A DNA stretch of 64,000 bases from Pseudovirgaria hyperparasitica (taxonomy: Eukaryota; Ascomycota; Dothideomycetes; Acrospermales; Acrospermaceae). Below the pieces are notes generated by a model. It did not search any database. It saw nothing but the letters and a program-made list of their open reading frames with translations, and had not been told where the DNA came from. Location of the stretch: the NCBI RefSeq assembly GCF_010093815.1, contig NW_022985564.1, positions 540,590 to 604,589 on the forward strand. The letters are read 5' to 3'. A program made the position numbers and the translations under genes. Shown here piece after piece: positions 1-43,900 of this stretch (its first letter is position 1; the number at the start of each line of letters is the position of its first letter).

Positions 1-571
1 TGATGTGGATGTTCATCCCAAGACACCGTGCATGCAGATTAAACCCCTCATTAGCCTATCCTGGCGACTCTGCATCTATCAGACTAGACACGATCGCAGC
101 CGTGATCCCAAGCAGCTCTTTCGCGTCCGAATTGCCGTCTCAGGTTTTGCGGAACTGCGGCAGTGCAAAAGAGCGCCGCTGAGGCGAGGGAGCAGCGGCA
201 ATAGTCCATGGAAGCGGCTCTGTAGATCCACGACGGCAAGACATGTCACTGGGCGAGGCTGAGAAATGTGGCTGCGAGGATGATGAAACTTATGGGGATC
301 GAGATGACTCGAGGACCCTGAACGTCATCCAATCACTGCTCGACTACAGCGCTAGCCCTGAACCGGCTGTGAGTATAATTACTCTGTAGGGTGGGTTACC
401 GTGCGTCTATCAGGTCGGACATGCAAGGTCGCGTTAGGTGCTTTGATTTCCTCTGTGTGCTTTTTATATATCCTAGGGCATTACCATCCCATGCGACCCC
501 TAGATTCATGTAAGGCACCATATCCCGAAGTCCATATATGCACATATCTACAAGCATCATGCACTGTGCCT
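1..571. other. Left edge, no firm gene
   Basis: No gene can be supported. On the plus strand an ATG at 243 opens a short acidic reading frame that runs to a good donor-like GTGAGT at about 370, so this could be a small exon of a gene that continues elsewhere. I could not find a partner exon and the peptide is not recognised. The remainder lies downstream of the biotin synthase stop and probably holds its 3' untranslated region. Confidence 0.3.
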
Positions 572-2336: not shown

Positions 2337-4431
2337 TCATATGCGTGCTTTGCCCGTCTTCAGCGCCTCGTAGTCTTCGTTTCGGAACGGAATGTACGTG
2401 TCTCCTTCGTATGGAAGCCAGTACATCACATCGTCTCCCGTGACTTTGGCGGGATCAATGCCCTCGCGTCTTATCTTTCCCTTTTGAATCTTGAACGTCC
2501 CGGTGTACTCAATCAGCTTTGTGACCCTGATGAATCCAGGCACGGCGTAGCGAGGGAGCTGCGTTAAACAGTGCTGTGCCAATCCCCTAAAGTCCACCTT
2601 GTCAGCCGTCACTCCAGGTTTGAGAACGACGGCCGCAAGACCACAACGGCCATCTGCCTTTGGCACTTCCACTCCCACGACATTCGATTCGTCGATTTGG
2701 CTGAATGTTCCGACAATGTCGCTGACTTCATTGGTTGATACATTTTCGCTGCGCCAGCGGAAAGTGTCGCCCAGTCGATCTACAAAATACACACGACCAT
2801 CTTTGTCCTGTCGCAGCAGATCCCCAGATCTGTACCATCTGTGCATGGCGGGTCAGCTTTGAGGTGTAGTCATGATCCTATATCAGCACTTACACGTCTC
2901 CCCGCTTAAAAGCATCGCGCAGCAGCCTCTTTTCCATAGCTTCTTTATTTTGGTGATACACTTCTTGCAATGGAGTTGATGTATCCATCCGATATATCTC
3001 TTCGCCAGGCTCGTTTACACCAACAACGACAGGACGTCCGGCTTCATCTTTTATGATCTCCTGAGTGTCCATGTCTATCTTGATCCTTTTAACACCACTT
3101 CCAGCCATGAGTTTGAAAATGAGACCTCGGACACCCACAGCGTATCTGGAGAACTCGCCTCGATTTGCATTCAGTGATGATTTGCCCAAGGAATCCGTGG
3201 CAGCATACAGTTCATTGATGGTCTCGATGCCAAATCTCTGACGGAATGGCTCCCACACGTCAGGACGCATCCCGTTGCCCCACGCCATCTTGACACTGTT
3301 TTGACAATCAAGCGGCGACGGTGGAGCATTTACTAGATATCGGCATAGCTCGCCGACGTACTGTAATATAGTAGCTTTTGACTCTCTAACTTCCGGCCAG
3401 AATGTTTTATGTGAGAATTTGCGACTGAGGACGATCGTAGATCCACCATGAATCGATGGAGTCACACACAAGCCATGACCAGTCCCATGGTATAATGGAA
3501 GGCAGGTGAACATGCGCTCACCGGGTTTCAGTTTAAGGTAGCGGGCCATAATATAGCCAGTCATTAATTCACGTTGTACTGTCACTCTCGTGGCTTTGGG
3601 CAGTCCCGTAGTTCCACTTGTGTACAGCAGGCCTCGAATATCATTCAAGCTTCCAGGAATCTGTCGTTCTTTCGGCACAGGAGCCATGATTTTCAGGCTG
3701 TCAATTAATTGGGGACCGTACAAGTGCAATGTGACCTGCAAATGAATTTAGTGGACATTTATGCAGATTTGTCGCACCTAGCCCACCTTGATGTCATCAA
3801 AATCTTTTGCACAAGTATTAATATTGCGATATGATTCCGAGTCATATAAGACGTAACGAGTGCCACAGAGCTGAGTTTCGAAGTTAGCCATTGAACATTG
3901 TTAAAGGCTTTGAACAATGTAGACCTACCTTAACGCAATGGAGGAGCCCATGACCAGTTAAGTTGCAGTTGAGGAAGCTCGGCGCACCTCCAATACATTC
4001 GAGCGCCATCCATAGCAAGATATATTCGGGAGTGTTGACGCCATATATTGCGACGACTTCATCCTTCTGCACATTGAGGTCATTGAGCAGCCAATTGGCA
4101 GCCTTGATTATCCTGTCGTAGAACTGTTTGTAGGTCCACGATTTTCCCTCGAAAATGAGGAAAAGTCGGTCACCATGATTGCGAGCCTGTTCCTCGAAGA
4201 TATGGAACGTAAATAGTCGTTGCTCTTTGGCACGTGTTTCGATGAACTTCACCACACTGCGATGTGTCGGAGAAAGCGGTGCCAGTGCTAAGTCGCTTGC
4301 AATGTGATATTTCGCATTGACATAGGCAGCTGCAGCCGTAAGGGCCGTTGCGCCTACGAGGGCGGATGAGGCTATGTATGAATATCAACGGAATCGTTCA
4401 AGCATATGTTTGCAGGTTACTTACCAGCCAT
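2337..4431 (-). CDS. FAT1/FATP-like very-long-chain acyl-CoA synthetase
   Basis: This enzyme activates long or very long fatty acids to CoA thioesters; the family (yeast Fat1, animal SLC27) also takes part in fatty acid uptake and sits in ER, peroxisome or lipid droplets. Five exons (4431-4425, 4371-3929, 3870-3787, 3735-2894, 2838-2337) give 625 aa in frame throughout. Exon 1 holds only ATGGCTG. The N-terminus is a hydrophobic Ala-rich segment (residues 2-22). The AMP-binding P-loop YTSGTTGLPKA, the ELYAATDS block and the FATP-type motif YFVDRLGDTFRW are all present. The protein ends in GKARI; ARI resembles a weak type-1 peroxisomal signal, comparable to AKI known in other fungi. The exact acyl substrate cannot be read from the sequence. 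Its place between two biotin genes suggests, but does not prove, a role in acyl-CoA supply for biotin. Confidence 0.92.
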
Positions 4432-6990: not shown

Positions 6991-7823
6991 TATTGAAGAA
7001 CGATGCCGTGAGGGCTGAGAATCGTGGGTTTCTTTGGAGTCCGCCACGGTGACTGCTTTGCTGGCCAGAAGCGCTTTTGCGGAAGATGAAGGACGGCGAC
7101 GAGTGTTCGATTCTGTCACGGTGGTGATGTAAGAAAAGCAATGTGTGTGATGGAAGGTAGTACAAAGCGACTGCCGTTGTACTCGTATCAGACGACGTGA
7201 GAGCGAAGTAGCGGTGGCTCAGAGAACGCTGCAGACTGGATCAGGGAACGAGGCACAACGCATCTACTTGGTGGGCATCGCTTGTACGGCCAGTACGACG
7301 AGAGGCTGGGATCGTGGCAGGCAAAAAGGCAGACGAGGGAGAAGGCGTAATTGAAGAAAGGGGACCGAAAAGATATCGAAGTTCGGAATGGCTGCTTCTT
7401 GAGAGCCAAGAGCCCTAAAGCGGTTTGGCAGATCCATTTATCAATCCTGGCTTTTCGAGTTTCAAGGGTTGGTCGGTCTTGCTCGGAGCGTCGTAAGCCA
7501 AACCTGAAATCTCAGGCAACTTTTAGCCTTGCGGGCAATTCTCTAAGGCATCCAATGTGACCTTGAACTTTGTCAAAACAAGCTTTGAGCAATTGTCCAA
7601 GTACATCAAGAGGGAGATCCCTATCCATCAATACACCATCGCCATGTATTACATTTGCCTCAACAAAGCACGCAATGAATGCAAACCACGGGTGTCCCCG
7701 GTTGAGCCCTCGCCTGGCGCGATTTCTAGGTACGCGGGGCAGCAAAAGTGCCCAACCTTTTGAGCAGCAGCATGCTAAACATTGCGAATCATCATTCACT
7801 TTCTCGTTTCTGTTACTCGAGTT
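6991..7823. promoter_or_regulatory. Divergent promoter region (mannosyltransferase / bioF)
   Basis: This spacer lies between two genes pointing away from each other, so it should hold both promoters and both 5' leaders. Short frames inside it (minus 6893-7165, plus 7557-7763) lack any recognisable feature. I did not find a clear shared regulatory motif by eye. Confidence 0.5.
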
Positions 7824-9226
7824 ATGGAGCAGACTGCGGTCGAGAAGAGGCTTCAATCATTACTAGATCATCGGCAGTCGCAATCTCTTCTACGCAGATT
7901 AACCGTCGCGCCTCCAGGGGCTCCAGACTTTTCATCCAACGATTTCCTCTCATTATCAACAAACAAATCGCTACATACGGCCTTCTTCAACGAGCTCTCA
8001 AAGTCACAAGGAGACTTTAGACTTGGTAGTGGAGGCTCGAGATTGCTGGATGGTAACTCGAGCTTGGCCCAGGATCTGGAGCGTGACGTTGCCCTTTTCC
8101 ACAATGCACCCGCAGGGCTTCTTTTCAATTCCGGTTTCGACGCGAATTCTGGATTCTTTGCATGCGTGCCACGGTGTGGAGACTACGTCGTTTATGATTC
8201 GTATATCCATGCTTCAGTCCATGACGGCATGAGACTGTCAAGAGCATCTTCATGTTTACCTTTCAAGCACAACTCGGTAACAGATCTAAGGGCTCTTCTA
8301 GAGAGGTCAATCAAAACCGATAGGCTACTTGAGCAAGGCTCCCGAGATGTCTTTCTAGCTGTTGAAGCCATCTATAGCATGGATGGTGATTTAACACCGC
8401 TCCAAGAGATCATCGACCTTGTGGACCAGCTCTTCCCGTTCAAAAATTGCCACATCATCATTGACGAAGCACATTCAACAGGCGTCCTAGGGCCTTTAGG
8501 GAAGGGCTTGGTCTGTCAGCTTGGTCTCGAAGATCGCATGTTTGCACGATTGCATACCTTTGGGAAGGCCATGGCCTCTGCAGGTGGTATGTAACCTCAA
8601 CATCATATGCACCTCCTGCCACTGACCATCATCTAGCCATGATCTTATGCTCGCAAACTGTTAGACAGTATTTGATTAACTACGCTCGTCCCTTGATATA
8701 CACGACATCAATGTCATATCCATCTCTAATAAGTATCAAAGTCTCTTACGATTTCCTAGGTAGTGGAAAAGTCGAAGCAGTAAGTTTCGCCATCACTACC
8801 ACTACCAACCACCTCGTAGGACCAAAACAAATCTAACCCTCTCAGCTGCGCCGCCACCTTCAAGCCCTTCAAACCAGATTCTACAGGCTCCTCCAACAAC
8901 TCGTGACCAAACACCCTTTACAAGGTACCGGTATCCTCCCTCTAACCATCCCAGCATCCTGTCCAAGGTCCCCAATCTTCTCAATCCTCACCTCAGAACC
9001 CCGCAACTTGGCCGCGCACTGCCAGAAATCGGGCTTCGTCGTCAGACCGGTCGTGCCACCCACAGTCCCAACTGGCACCGAGCGTATCAGAGTGTGTCTG
9101 CACGCAGGCAACACATATGCGCAGATCGATGCCCTTGCTGCTGCCATCGAACTGTGGACTGTAAAGGAGATGCAGCGAAGGAAGGGGCTCTCCACGTGTA
9201 CATATGCAGATAGAGCGCGGCTTTGA
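7824..9226 (+). CDS. bioF: 8-amino-7-oxononanoate synthase, PTS1 ending
   Basis: This PLP enzyme condenses pimeloyl-CoA with alanine, the first committed step of biotin synthesis. Three exons (7824-8586, 8637-8779, 8846-9226) give 428 aa. I chose the ATG at 7824 because the next residues MEQTAVEKRLQSLL match the usual start of the family. Visible motifs are GSGGSRLLDG for substrate binding, IIIDEAHSTG (Asp214, His217) for the PLP ring, and HTFGKAMASAG with the PLP lysine at about residue 248. The last three residues are ARL, a standard type-1 peroxisomal signal. Peroxisomal placement of this enzyme has been shown in Aspergillus, so the tail is meaningful. It shares the locus with biotin synthase (572-1914). 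The bifunctional bioDA gene is not in the window. Confidence 0.94.
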
Positions 9227-9353: not shown

Positions 9354-9528
9354 AAGAAATTAGTAAGCACTGTCCAAAGTCTACCATAATAGTATGACCT
9401 GTGACTACTCTACCGCATATAGTCAATGTTCTCTTGAAGGAGACTTATCAACAAAGCGCGCTGCTGGATAGATAGTGAGTGCAGTAAGAAAATAAAAAGC
9501 CCCAGAGATGTCATACTATAAGGTTATA

Positions 9529-9623
<95 letters not shown>
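9529..9623. repeat. (TCTG)n microsatellite at gap edge
   Basis: A perfect TCTG tetranucleotide tract of nearly 24 units ends exactly where the run of N begins. The true array is therefore probably longer, and it is the likely reason the assembly broke here. The open frame across it (VCLS repeats) is not a gene. Confidence 0.95.
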
Positions 9624-10438
9624 NNNNNNNNNNNNNNNNNNNNNNNNNNNNNNNNNNNNNNNNNNNNNNNNNNNNNNNNNNNNNNNNNNNNNNNNNNNNN
9701 NNNNNNNNNNNNNNNNNNNNNNNNNNNNNNNNNNNNNNNNNNNNNNNNNNNNNNNNNNNNNNNNNNNNNNNNNNNNNNNNNNNNNNNNNNNNNNNNNNNN
9801 NNNNNNNNNNNNNNNNNNNNNNNNNNNNNNNNNNNNNNNNNNNNNNNNNNNNNNNNNNNNNNNNNNNNNNNNNNNNNNNNNNNNNNNNNNNNNNNNNNNN
9901 NNNNNNNNNNNNNNNNNNNNNNNNNNNNNNNNNNNNNNNNNNNNNNNNNNNNNNNNNNNNNNNNNNNNNNNNNNNNNNNNNNNNNNNNNNNNNNNNNNNN
10001 NNNNNNNNNNNNNNNNNNNNNNNNNNNNNNNNNNNNNNNNNNNNNNNNNNNNNNNNNNNNNNNNNNNNNNNNNNNNNNNNNNNNNNNNNNNNNNNNNNNN
10101 NNNNNNNNNNNNNNNNNNNNNNNNNNNNNNNNNNNNNNNNNNNNNNNNNNNNNNNNNNNNNNNNNNNNNNNNNNNNNNNNNNNNNNNNNNNNNNNNNNNN
10201 NNNNNNNNNNNNNNNNNNNNNNNNNNNNNNNNNNNNNNNNNNNNNNNNNNNNNNNNNNNNNNNNNNNNNNNNNNNNNNNNNNNNNNNNNNNNNNNNNNNN
10301 NNNNNNNNNNNNNNNNNNNNNNNNNNNNNNNNNNNNNNNNNNNNNNNNNNNNNNNNNNNNNNNNNNNNNNNNNNNNNNNNNNNNNNNNNNNNNNNNNNNN
10401 NNNNNNNNNNNNNNNNNNNNNNNNNNNNNNNNNNNNNN
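9624..10438. other. Assembly gap (815 N)
   Basis: Unknown bases. The size is likely an estimate from linking data. Nothing can be said about content, though one side is a pure tetranucleotide repeat and the other is AT-rich. Confidence 0.99.
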
Positions 10439-10760
10439 TTAGATATATATTCCTTATATAAGGAATATTATATATCTATTTATACCTGCCCTTTTCACAA
10501 GAAGTAATACGATTAGGGAAGTCGTCTACTAGATCTTTTTAGGAGTTGATCATGATTCAAAAACTTATATCTAGTAAGGAGTGTTAGAAGGTAGTGTAGA
10601 TATTGTACTATAGTATAAGAGTTATAGTAATAAGATATCTGATAGTTTACTCTTTTAGATAATAATATATCATAATCTTAGTAGATGCTCTCGTCTAATA
10701 AGAAGTATTAGATCTAAGGGAGTTAGATATGAAAGGTAGAGAATTGATATAGTAAACCTG
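10439..10760. other. AT-rich segment with inverted repeat
   Basis: Right of the gap the DNA is strongly AT-rich, in sharp contrast to the flanking genes. At 10441-10477 two arms built from AGATATATATTCCTT pair almost perfectly around a short ATAT loop. This composition resembles DNA changed by repeat-induced point mutation, often the edge of an old mobile element, but no element family can be named from what is visible. Confidence 0.5.
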
Positions 10761-34407: not shown

Positions 34408-35594
34408 CTACATAAAATCATCCTCCCAGTTCGGATCCCGATCCTGGTTACTCTGCGCCGCTAGTGCATCCTCACTAAACATATCATCGTACGCATGCTC
34501 CTTCTCCCACTTCTTCTCCTTCCGCTCCTTTGCAATGCGTGCCTCTTCCTTGGCTCGCGCCTGCTGATTGACTCGGTCCCGCTGCCGCAGCTCCTTGAGA
34601 CGATCTTCCTTTTCCTGCAGCAGGTTGGGATAGGATTCGGTGCGGGTTTTGTTAAGGCGATTTACGATTGGGTTCTCGCGCGCAGCGACATGGATCTTCT
34701 TAACCTGTCGGGGGAATTGAGCTGTGTGTCCTTTGCCCTGACCACTCGATCATATCACATGATATATAGGGGACCGCTGGTGTTGGGAGCGGAGAGAGAA
34801 GATGAAAAAGCATAATTACCTTCTTCTGGTCCTTAAACCCGACCTGCCCAACGGCCATACTTCCATCCTTCTTCAAGTTCGACCACGGCGTGTATATCAC
34901 CGTGATGTTATCCTTCTTATTGCCTGTTCATCAAGGGGTTTTATACCTCAGCCTCGTGAACCCCCTTTCTTAAGCCAAGCGTACACGGAAAGAAGAAAGA
35001 ATTAAAAAAACACGCGAAGCGAAGAATTGAGCATACCTTCAATCGAATTCGCCTTTGTCAGCTGTGCGCAATCAACCAACAAGTCCTTCTCAATCGCATC
35101 CCAGGTCTCGCCGTCGCGCAGACGCACGTAGACATGCGCCGAGGACAGATTGTCAACGTGAAACTATCCGGCCATTGCGCCCATCAGCCTTCCTGACCGC
35201 CCCTCAAACGACGAAAAGAACCATGCATAATTACCCTGAGAGTAGCACAATATTAGTATCGATTTCTCACCCCGCGAGTTCCCCCCACCCCAATTTTCTG
35301 TGTTTGTTTATGGATGCAGGGGGAACGGTAAGGGGAGAAAAAGAAAAGGGGGAATTTATTTACCAGACATCTTCGTCCCAGCCGTACTTTATCAAATCTT
35401 CGTCTAACACGCGCTCAGTCGATTCAGTCCATATGTGCCTTTTTTTACAAAGGGCTGTCCGGGTAGCTGACTGGCTGGCTGGAGCTAGTCTGCGCGCCCG
35501 AGGGAAAAAAAGCCTACGTACTTTCGACTTTGTCCTTGCCCATGTAGATGTATGCCGAGGGCTTGACGACGTTGCTTGTAAAGTAGTACACCAT
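34408..35594 (-). CDS. CCDC25-like protein (NFACT-R/DUF814)
   Basis: Exons 35594-35522, 35403-35364, 35235 (one nucleotide), 35163-35037, 34923-34820 and 34704-34408 give 213 aa, close to human CCDC25 (208 aa). Conserved order: [94 protein letters not shown], then a charged coiled coil and the ending NWEDDFM. The NFACT-R fold is shared with proteins of ribosome quality control; human CCDC25 is described as a DNA sensor at the plasma membrane, while the fungal role is unclear. Exon 2 ends with TG and the next large exon starts with TTT CAC, so one base is missing. A lone G at 35235, with an acceptor before and a donor after, completes the invariant Trp codon. Confidence 0.88.
35235..35235 (-). 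other. Predicted 1-nt microexon of CCDC25-like gene
   Basis: Minus-strand reading around this base is CTACTCTCAG | G | GTAATTATGC. The left intron (35363-35236, 128 nt) starts GTAAAT and has TACTAAT about 17 nt before its acceptor. The right intron (35234-35164, 71 nt) starts GTAATT, has GCTGAT before its acceptor GGATAG. Inclusion of this G gives V-W-F-H-V-D, as in animal homologues; without it the frame is lost. Confidence 0.7.
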
Positions 35595-40981: not shown

Positions 40982-43900
40982 GGCGAAGGCTCGGAGAGTA
41001 TGAACGTATATGCAATGCGAATTGAGAGGCGCACTATGGAGAATGTGCGAGCGGGAGTCGAAGTCGAAGTCGTACCTAGGTACTTGGCAAACAGGTAAAC
41101 AACAAACAAACCTAGATCGGCGGCTTTGGTCAGCCACGCGAAACTACATCAGCCACGGCTAGCCTTGTAACAGACTAGCGTCACAGTAGGAGACAGATGT
41201 CGGATGTCCACTCCTGCCAGGGCACCGACCACCAGACTGGAGAGAGTCACAATAAGCTCAATGAAAGAGCGATTCATGTTTACATGAGCCTACTACAGTG
41301 CTCCATCTGTGAGTCTCTTCACAGAACGTCGCATCGCCAAGTCTTAGTCAGCATTAATCCAAAGCGACGTACCAGTAAGTAGCTGAATGCGGTGACGGTA
41401 TTACTAAGACTTCAATTCGCTTCTATTGCTGAGCGAAGGTATCAAACATCAAACCCAATGATGTATGCCCGGTGCCTACTGTCTGCTTACTGTTGCGCAT
41501 CAACAGCAAGATAGCAGCACTGCGGACGAGGGGAGCTATATCTGTCGAATCTGCCAGGAACTATTCCGTCCCAAGCACATGAGAAGTGACAAGTCCCGTC
41601 TGACAAGAAACGGATACTCTGCGCCGCCAAGCACCACTTTCCGTACATTTTCAAACAAAGGAGAAGGTCAGCTTGAGCCGGGGAAGTTCCCGCTGAACGG
41701 GTGGCAGTTGGGCTTTGAGGAGTGGAAGGCGGAGGTTAGGAAGAGGTGGAAGTTTTGATGCGCGGAACGATAATTTTGTGTCTCTCAGGTTACATTGGCA
41801 TTCGTGAAAGGCGGACTAACATGGCAATTGTTCTCACGCCTGACGAGTATGGCGCATGTATGGATGAATGGATAGACAGCTTCACGCTACACGTCTGGCA
41901 GTGGCAATGGCACGCGTCTGCGCGTGACGCAGTCCATTATTGGAAGCGCGGTATCACAAGACACCCGAACTGCAGTGTAAAGTACGGGGTAGAGTTGTTG
42001 ACAGCAGCGATATGTGGAGGAGGAGAATATTGGATTCTGGCCAGGCCTACCATCAATGCACACAGAAAGAAATACGAGCTGTCGGCATGAGTTGGTCGTA
42101 TGTACTGTGGTAGTCCGCCCTCCTAATACCTACCTACTGCATGCAGCTCCATTAATTAGTAGCTACTGTACCTGTGTTATAATTAGTCGAGAGGAGAGAA
42201 GGAATGACAAGCAAGGCACATCCACAAGAAGAAAAAAAGCATGTGAGACCGCCTCTCCATTGTTACAGGATGTTGTGCACGCAGCACAGGCATAACATAT
42301 AACCAAGAAAAGGGTTGAGCAAGAAAGAAGGGGAAAAAAGAAATTTGATATTCGGGATGGCTGATGAGAGGAGTGCGGGAGGGGCGTTGAAGGTGTAATT
42401 ATGGTATAGCTGAGGTTTGGTGCACGAGGAGGATGTAATTATGGTGCACGAGGAGGGCGGGAGCGTGAGTATCCATGCTATGCCGCCCATGATGATGATG
42501 ATGTTGATGATCATCATCATGCGACACCGAACGCCGTGCGCTGGCTGTGTTCTGCAAGGATCCAAGGTGCACTGGGATAGGATGGCAGTGGTTGCGATGG
42601 AATGGGTTGTTCGTTGTTTGGCTGGTGTGTGTCTGCATGCATAGAGCTTAGGCACTGCATAGGTAGGTATGGATCGAGCCGAGTCTTTGCAGTGAGAAAA
42701 GAAGCGAGTCACAAGCATGATCGATGCATCTCTACTACGCACATGTAATTATTCAATATGACAGGAACCGAGTTTAGACTTCCCAGGAATTCTAGCATAA
42801 TTACGCCACCATGAACGACGATCCCGGGTCATGGATGAGATGTGTATCATTGTCAAAGAAGCTTTCAGGTGGCGGTTCGTTGGCGGGCTACTGACTGTAT
42901 CAGGGGCAATAGACTCACTGACTGACAGACAGACGGACAAAGGTTCAAGCGATGCAGAGATTAATTAGACCTGGAAGACTGTCCAAGACTAATAATAACA
43001 CTAGATACTGCTGTACATGCTTAGCTGTATTACTTACTCCACACTGGGGAAATAGATGGTCACGTAGGAATGGTGGGGATTTTTCATGTCGGATGCTGCA
43101 TGACCATGTAGTGTAGTGATCCCTCCCCACCGCCACTCAGGCACTTGCAGCGGACGTCCGAGACTGACGATCACCCGTCTGTCCAGGCTTCGTCTTGAGT
43201 GAATGTTGTCAAGTATGATTATTAGCATGAATAGAATGTGTGCATCTTCACAATCGTTATCTCGACGTCGACCGTGCACGGGATAATTGATTCAATAGCC
43301 AGACAGTCCGACAGGTCGGTCGGTCGGGCAGCGGGTCAGGGAGGGCAAGCCAGAAGACAGAAGTACAGGACTAACTAAGCCAACTCAGGCCGACTTTTAG
43401 CTGACTCTAGCTGACTCTAGCCAGCTTTGGGGGCACTAGAGGCGGCTGATGGCAGCTAAGGGCAGCTAAAAGTGTGGAAAATGGGCGGGTGAGGTCGGTA
43501 CTGGGTCCCCTCAGTCGGTACTAAATAGGTGGCTTGCGTGTTTGCGTTGTGGCTAACCGGGAAATGTCTAGCTGGCTAGGGATTCATTGTAGGGGCTTGG
43601 GCTTGTACAGTATTATGGAAATAATCATTACGCTCTCGAATCCTACCATCCAAACGATGCCAACTATTGACAAGCCTGGTCTGGCTATCGAGTTTGATCA
43701 TTATTACTATTAGTAGCATGTACTACGATGTATCTATAGTCCCAAGTCTGAGTCTGTGTCTGTATCTGCCCTCTGCAATTAGTCTGTCGTCTGTAGTGTG
43801 GATTGCTGCCAAAGGTGACCAGAGAAGGCCCGGTGTCACGCCTTTTTCACTGATTGACACGCTTCCACTGCTTGTTGCTTCCACATCCTTCTTCCACCTC

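Follow-up and report, generated by a model that had tools for sequence, protein, structure and literature searches.

How a conserved tryptophan codon is read in a small gene of Pseudovirgaria hyperparasitica is the question raised by the locus described here. The two exons that carry the codon and its downstream neighbours do not join in frame, and a single G, which is flanked by AG and GT, stands between them. The gene is read from the minus strand within a 64-kb stretch of DNA, which is called the window in the following; 49.6% of its length is G+C and 815 positions are N. A TGTC-type tetranucleotide microsatellite runs into N, that is into an assembly gap, at approximately 9490-10500, and the minus-strand ORF at 19753-20820 matches the SLATT_fungal domain (PF18142, E 4e-33). 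This match and the style of the introns point to a fungal source. The gene model comprises six exons, which together give 642 nt and a protein of 213 aa with no internal stop. Its features are as follows, in window positions and in the order of transcription.

35522-35594, minus strand: exon 1, ATG...GTC GAA A
35404-35521, minus strand: intron 1, 118 nt, GTACGT...TAG, phase 1
35364-35403, minus strand: exon 2, 40 nt, AC GAA...GTC TG
35236-35363, minus strand: intron A, 128 nt, GTAAAT...TACTAAT...CTCTCAG
35252-35258, minus strand: TACTAAT, branch-site element of intron A
35235, minus strand: G, predicted exon of one nucleotide in the context AG-G-GT, completes the conserved Trp codon as its third base
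35164-35234, minus strand: intron B, 71 nt, GTAATT...GCTGAT...GATAG
35037-35163, minus strand: exon 4, TTT CAC GTT GAC...GAA G
34924-35036, minus strand: intron after exon 4, 113 nt, GTATGC...CAG
34820-34923, minus strand: exon 5
34705-34819, minus strand: last intron, 115 nt, GTAATT...CAG
34408-34704, minus strand: exon 6, stop codon TAG included

The 213-residue product matches the NFACT-R_1 domain (PF05670) over the full profile (E 5.7e-34, positions 1-112 of 112) and also matches the solved CCDC25 chains 7eof (E 6.1e-60), 8woh (9.6e-60) and 7eoe (1.2e-59). The alignment begins at the Met of CCDC25, so that a CCDC25-type N-terminus is found together with a full-length NFACT-R_1 domain. In the alignment with 7eof the junction in question is ungapped from K-x-E-N-E-D-L-I-K through W-F-H-V-D, and W-F-H-V-D is identical. 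Exon 2 is only 40 nt long, because the acceptor is GTGTTAG|AC, which gives K-V-E-N-E-D-L and thereby matches CCDC25. The match to the bacterial RqcH is weak (E 0.071), and the Trp is retained there as well (DDIWLH). Judged by these sequence matches, the product is a fungal relative of CCDC25 with a conserved Trp codon (TGG, in D-V-W-F-H-V-D).

According to the sequence-only reading of this DNA, exon 2 ends with GTC TG, the next long exon starts with TTT CAC and a direct join of the two is out of frame; all of this could be confirmed in the minus-strand sequence, and the shortness of exon 2 is a point that this reading had left unmentioned. The direct GT-AG join, which removes 200 nt and skips the G, yields D-V-C-F-T-L (DEDVCFTLTI...) in a shifted frame with a stop later on. 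If the single G at 35235 is kept (TG, 128 nt removed, G, 71 nt removed, TTT), V-W-F-H-V-D is obtained. We enumerated GT-AG combinations from 35403 to 35037 on the condition that exon 1, the point where exon 2 begins and the point where exon 4 ends did not change; introns had to measure at least 40 nt, a single intron at most 260 nt and an inner exon at most 80 nt. Among the 78 in-frame models (one with a single intron and 77 with two introns) V-W-F-H-V-D is kept in exactly one, namely the one in which G 35235 separates a 128-nt intron from one of 71 nt. The remaining 76 two-intron models contain longer microexons, and in each of them residues of the conserved stretch are missing, exchanged or inserted. 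Retention of either intron brings in a stop codon, directly after the Trp in the case of intron A and 16 codons past the Trp in the case of intron B. The proposal that this G is an exon, with two introns of these lengths and ordinary ascomycete splice elements at its sides, is thus supported against the other GT-AG models that were enumerated.

The splice elements were scored against the Aspergillus nidulans consensus GURWGY, RYURAY and YAG, as printed in the papers on stwintrons. Intron A has a donor GTAAAT (5 of 6 positions), a branch site ACTAAT (6 of 6, with its A 17 nt from the 3' end) and CAG as acceptor; intron B has GTAATT (5 of 6), GCTGAT (6 of 6, with its A 20 nt from the 3' end) and TAG. 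Each of the two donors thus deviates from the consensus at one position, and for a standard intron of A. niger GUAAAU is named as an imperfect donor (PMC6616335). For the other three introns of the gene the donors score 5, 6 and 5 of 6, and the best branch candidates in the last 60 nt score 5, 5 and 4 of 6, so that a perfect RYTRAY in that region is confined to introns A and B among the five. TACTAAY occurs ten times on both strands of the window, the element of intron A included. A lone base between AG and GT, which is needed for the frame, is consequently flanked on both sides by an intron whose donor, branch site and acceptor are suitably spaced, and the predicted one-base exon of the CCDC25-like gene is probably real.

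The donor GTAATT is used by intron B and also by the last intron of the gene, and the two have their first 10 nt, GTAATTATGC, in common. This 10-mer occurs three times in the window, always on the minus strand: at 34810-34819 and 35225-35234, which are the two intron starts in this gene, and at 42795-42804. In local alignments of all ten pairs of the five introns, each with 300 mononucleotide shuffles, intron B and the last intron are the sole pair below 1% (0.7% of the shuffles, uncorrected for the ten pairs, and with six of the ten shared bases belonging to the donor). When the introns were compared one by one with the window by BLAST, each gave, besides itself, just matches of 11 to 22 nt. 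An origin of intron B by duplication or as an introner, for which these comparisons were made, was not adopted.

How often such an arrangement would appear by chance was estimated by shuffling the 200-nt stretch 20,000 times with its dinucleotides preserved and with the first six and the last three bases fixed. A bare AGGGT at an allowed place was found in 13.5% of the shuffles and YAGGGTA in 0.72%. The combination of a CTRAY branch site with YAG-G-GT was seen in 0.35%; this falls to 0.035% if a further branch site is demanded ahead of the final AG, and TACTAAY with YAG-G-GT was seen in 0.01%. These graded patterns were picked after the site had been seen, and the figures therefore overstate the surprise. 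On both strands of the window AGGGT occurs 94 times and CTRAY with YAG-G-GT six times, while the pattern CTRAY-8..30-YAG-G-GTRNNT has one match, which is this site. If the central base is left free, the sole other match of a branch site followed by YAG-N-GTRNNT lies at 377-413 on the minus strand, where the base is A (CTACAG-A-GTAATT). Since bare AGGGT is common, the argument rests on its coincidence with the branch sites, the donor and the frame.

The most serious alternative is that one base is absent exactly at the donor or the acceptor boundary, either from the assembly or by a real loss in the strain, in which case the true intron would be about 200 nt long and AG-G-GT would be there by chance. 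The flanking codons are intact on both sides, and for that reason such a slip could hide only at a boundary. The assembly is unfinished, as the 815 N in the window indicate, the branch site GCTGAT at 20 nt and the TAG acceptor fit a single 200-nt intron just as well as intron B, and bare AGGGT is no rarity in the shuffles. However, a slip leaves unexplained why TACTAAT stands 17 nt before CTCTCAG, why the one base that follows is the right one and why it is followed by a donor that is reused in the same gene; the shuffle frequencies of 0.35% for a branch site with YAG-G-GT and of 0.01% with TACTAAY also speak against it. An intron of 200 nt would furthermore be longer than the 118, 113 and 115 nt of the gene's remaining introns, and longer than five introns from other genes of the window (55-110 nt). 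An ab initio collection of introns from the window, with 175 candidates before filtering, was too noisy for a splice-site profile; the five were picked by donor consensus, a choice biased towards consensus donors, and they are therefore informative on length only. For two of them (AMP-binding and GPAT) both flanking ORFs match the same protein, while the other three (biotin synthase-like, MFS and phosphatase) have a Pfam match on one side only. A 200-nt intron is long yet possible, so the lengths help only a little. Taken together we consider a missing base unlikely.

A biotin synthase-like ORF (Radical_SAM, BATS) is found at 575-1534 on the minus strand of the window, and an aminotransferase class I/II ORF follows at 7779-8591 on the plus strand, approximately 6 kb apart; from their sequences the two are possibly biotin genes.

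A second alternative places the donor further upstream, at the GTCTGG at 35368, from where a single intron or a [D5,6]-type stwintron of 205 nt would extend to the acceptor at 35164 and leave a protein of 211 aa that lacks V-W. It is the sole in-frame single GT-AG join found in the enumeration. A search for split-donor arrangements ending at acceptor 35164 (split acceptors and split branch sites were judged by eye only) revealed four in-frame routes to the same product. Their outer donor is GTCTGG or GTCTGA, intron A serves as the inner intron in one of them, and all four lack V-W. However, GTCTGG agrees with the consensus at four of six positions and has no purine at +3, and the Trp that would be deleted is kept in CCDC25 as well as in the weak RqcH match, which makes this reading very improbable. 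A non-canonical splice of 199 nt, with its ends read as GT-TA or TA-AG, that would cut out the whole interval from TG to GTTT is hardly credible, for although it would yield the same V-W-F-H-V-D because the same G stands at both ends, it has no canonical ends, such terminal dinucleotides not being known as normal for U2 or U12 introns, and it leaves the elements TACTAAT, CTCTCAG and GTAATT with no role.

We therefore return to the one-base exon and consider it very likely that the Trp codon is split by two adjacent U2-type introns, which leave one exonic G between them and are probably spliced one after the other. Each intron would be recognised as a unit by the spliceosome, i.e. by intron definition, which is described as the mode of splice-site pairing in ascomycetes (PMC12403724). 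Under this mode a one-base exon should be easier to tolerate than under exon definition. Introns A and B would be removed successively, and either order would give the same mRNA. A stepwise removal is likely because a distance of one base would not allow the factors at the acceptor of intron A and the U1 at the donor of intron B to bind simultaneously. As to the origin, an intron at the Trp codon may have been joined later by a second intron one base away, or a cryptic AG-G-GT may have been adopted after the loss of one base, as was proposed by the authors of the Fusarium CYP621A study for their gene (PMC12940212). The sequence elements, the frame and the fact that of the 78 enumerated models this one alone keeps the motif were observed directly; the course of splicing, its stepwise order and the way in which the arrangement arose are inferred.

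The sequence-only reading had also related the arrangement to the twin introns of ascomycetes. In these stwintrons an inner intron splits the donor, the acceptor or the branch element of an outer one, and the whole stretch is removed (PMC5639578, PMC6616335, PMC12403724). The stwintrons of Pezizomycotina resemble the present case in that two U2 introns share one stretch and are removed in succession, as would be expected here, in ascomycetes that use intron definition. In contrast to stwintrons, the second intron has an uninterrupted donor, GTAATT, in the precursor, and one base is retained. The arrangement is not a stwintron as these papers define it, because the donor of intron B is contiguous before the removal of intron A and because of the base that is kept; full removal of the 200 nt with no base kept shifts the frame. 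The kinship in the strict sense was consequently given up, and what remains is that the arrangement probably works stepwise, similarly to stwintrons. The shift of introns by a single nucleotide is the title topic of PMC5587772, and the idea is also treated in PMC5639578.

Single-nucleotide exons had been called extremely rare, with a plant APC11 case as the example. The APC11 precedent stands, but further cases are published, namely VPS55 in plants and CYP621A in Fusarium. The closest of them is CYP621A, whose one-nucleotide exon with an AGGGT core is presented by its authors as the first fungal case (PMC12940212, 2026). It is supported by 20 orthologues (24 genes) and by 18 listed SRA reads, one of which is noted with intron sequence. 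As in the present case an ascomycete gene has one base between AG and GT in an AGGGT core, and a conserved motif is restored. The apparent intron is also long in both: in CYP621A it measures 139 nt, which is over twice as long as usual, the median being 56 nt. The two differ in the gene and in the codon, since the base in CYP621A is the middle one of a Gly codon and here the third one of a Trp codon, and while CYP621A has orthologues and SRA reads at its side, the case described here is known from one genomic locus alone (PMC12940212).

In Arabidopsis the single-nucleotide exon of APC11 was demonstrated with cDNA and with base substitutions examined in protoplasts (PMC4674806, 2015). It resembles the present one in being required for the frame, and it is described as constitutive; in contrast to that plant gene, where the base is A and the proof comes from cDNA and protoplasts, we deal here with a fungus, a G and sequence only (PMC4674806). 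One-nucleotide exons of both APC11 and VPS55 are reported for land plants (PMC8831610, 2022). The VPS55 microexon likewise lies between two introns and was missed by annotation; it differs from the one described here in that it belongs to plants, is well conserved across diverse members of them and is absent from isoforms in some species (PMC8831610). Among filamentous fungi, a functional and regulated microexon is known from Xlr2 of Trichoderma virens (PMC11121469, 2024), which is a case from another gene and differs in its regulation. A search of titles and the first parts of abstracts brought up, besides CYP621A, no spliceosomal single-base exon of a fungus, and a search on CCDC25 introns in Aspergillus found nothing. 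The corresponding terms also appear in papers on mitochondrial genes of a placozoan (PMC5436844) and of fungi (PMC12308204, PMC8208691).

We also looked for relatives of the protein in collections of viruses, phages, plasmids, E. coli and prokaryote genomes. The search of viral contigs gave seven pattern matches with no confirmed relative, and among 78 matching stretches in the genome contigs one was confirmed, a fragment of 20 residues. This fragment, at the contig end of a planctomycete MAG, is useless for a comparison of introns. It consists of about 20 CCDC25-like codons (QDLIKYGLPHDVWFHVDNLS) at positions 3001-3060 of a Schlesneria MAG contig (L001), in frame with an upstream ORF which we take to be HslU-like from its appearance, and it is probably the end of a chimeric assembly. 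PF05670 was not found in the one genome from which the contig comes. Of the 14 genomes used as controls 10 contain it, and these are named as bacteria and archaea.

With a second fungal gene, which encodes an unrelated and widely conserved protein and shows the same AG-G-GT core, it may tentatively be suggested that one-base exons are tolerated, and perhaps generated, repeatedly in ascomycetes. It is known from recursive splicing that introns abut at AGGT. Terminally overlapping introns are described for alternatively spliced stwintrons (PMC5639578), and AGT could be their shared core, which was derived here and is not taken from that paper. If the suggestion is true, AG-G-GT could be one state among overlapping and abutting introns, through which an intron moves by a single base while the protein stays intact. 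One-base exons define how small an exon the spliceosome can still process, and gene finders miss them. A further fungal case that shares the AG-G-GT core but lies in a gene other than CYP621A would argue for recurrence and for a search by pattern, and the CCDC25-like gene, being small and conserved, is one in which the order of splicing is directly testable.
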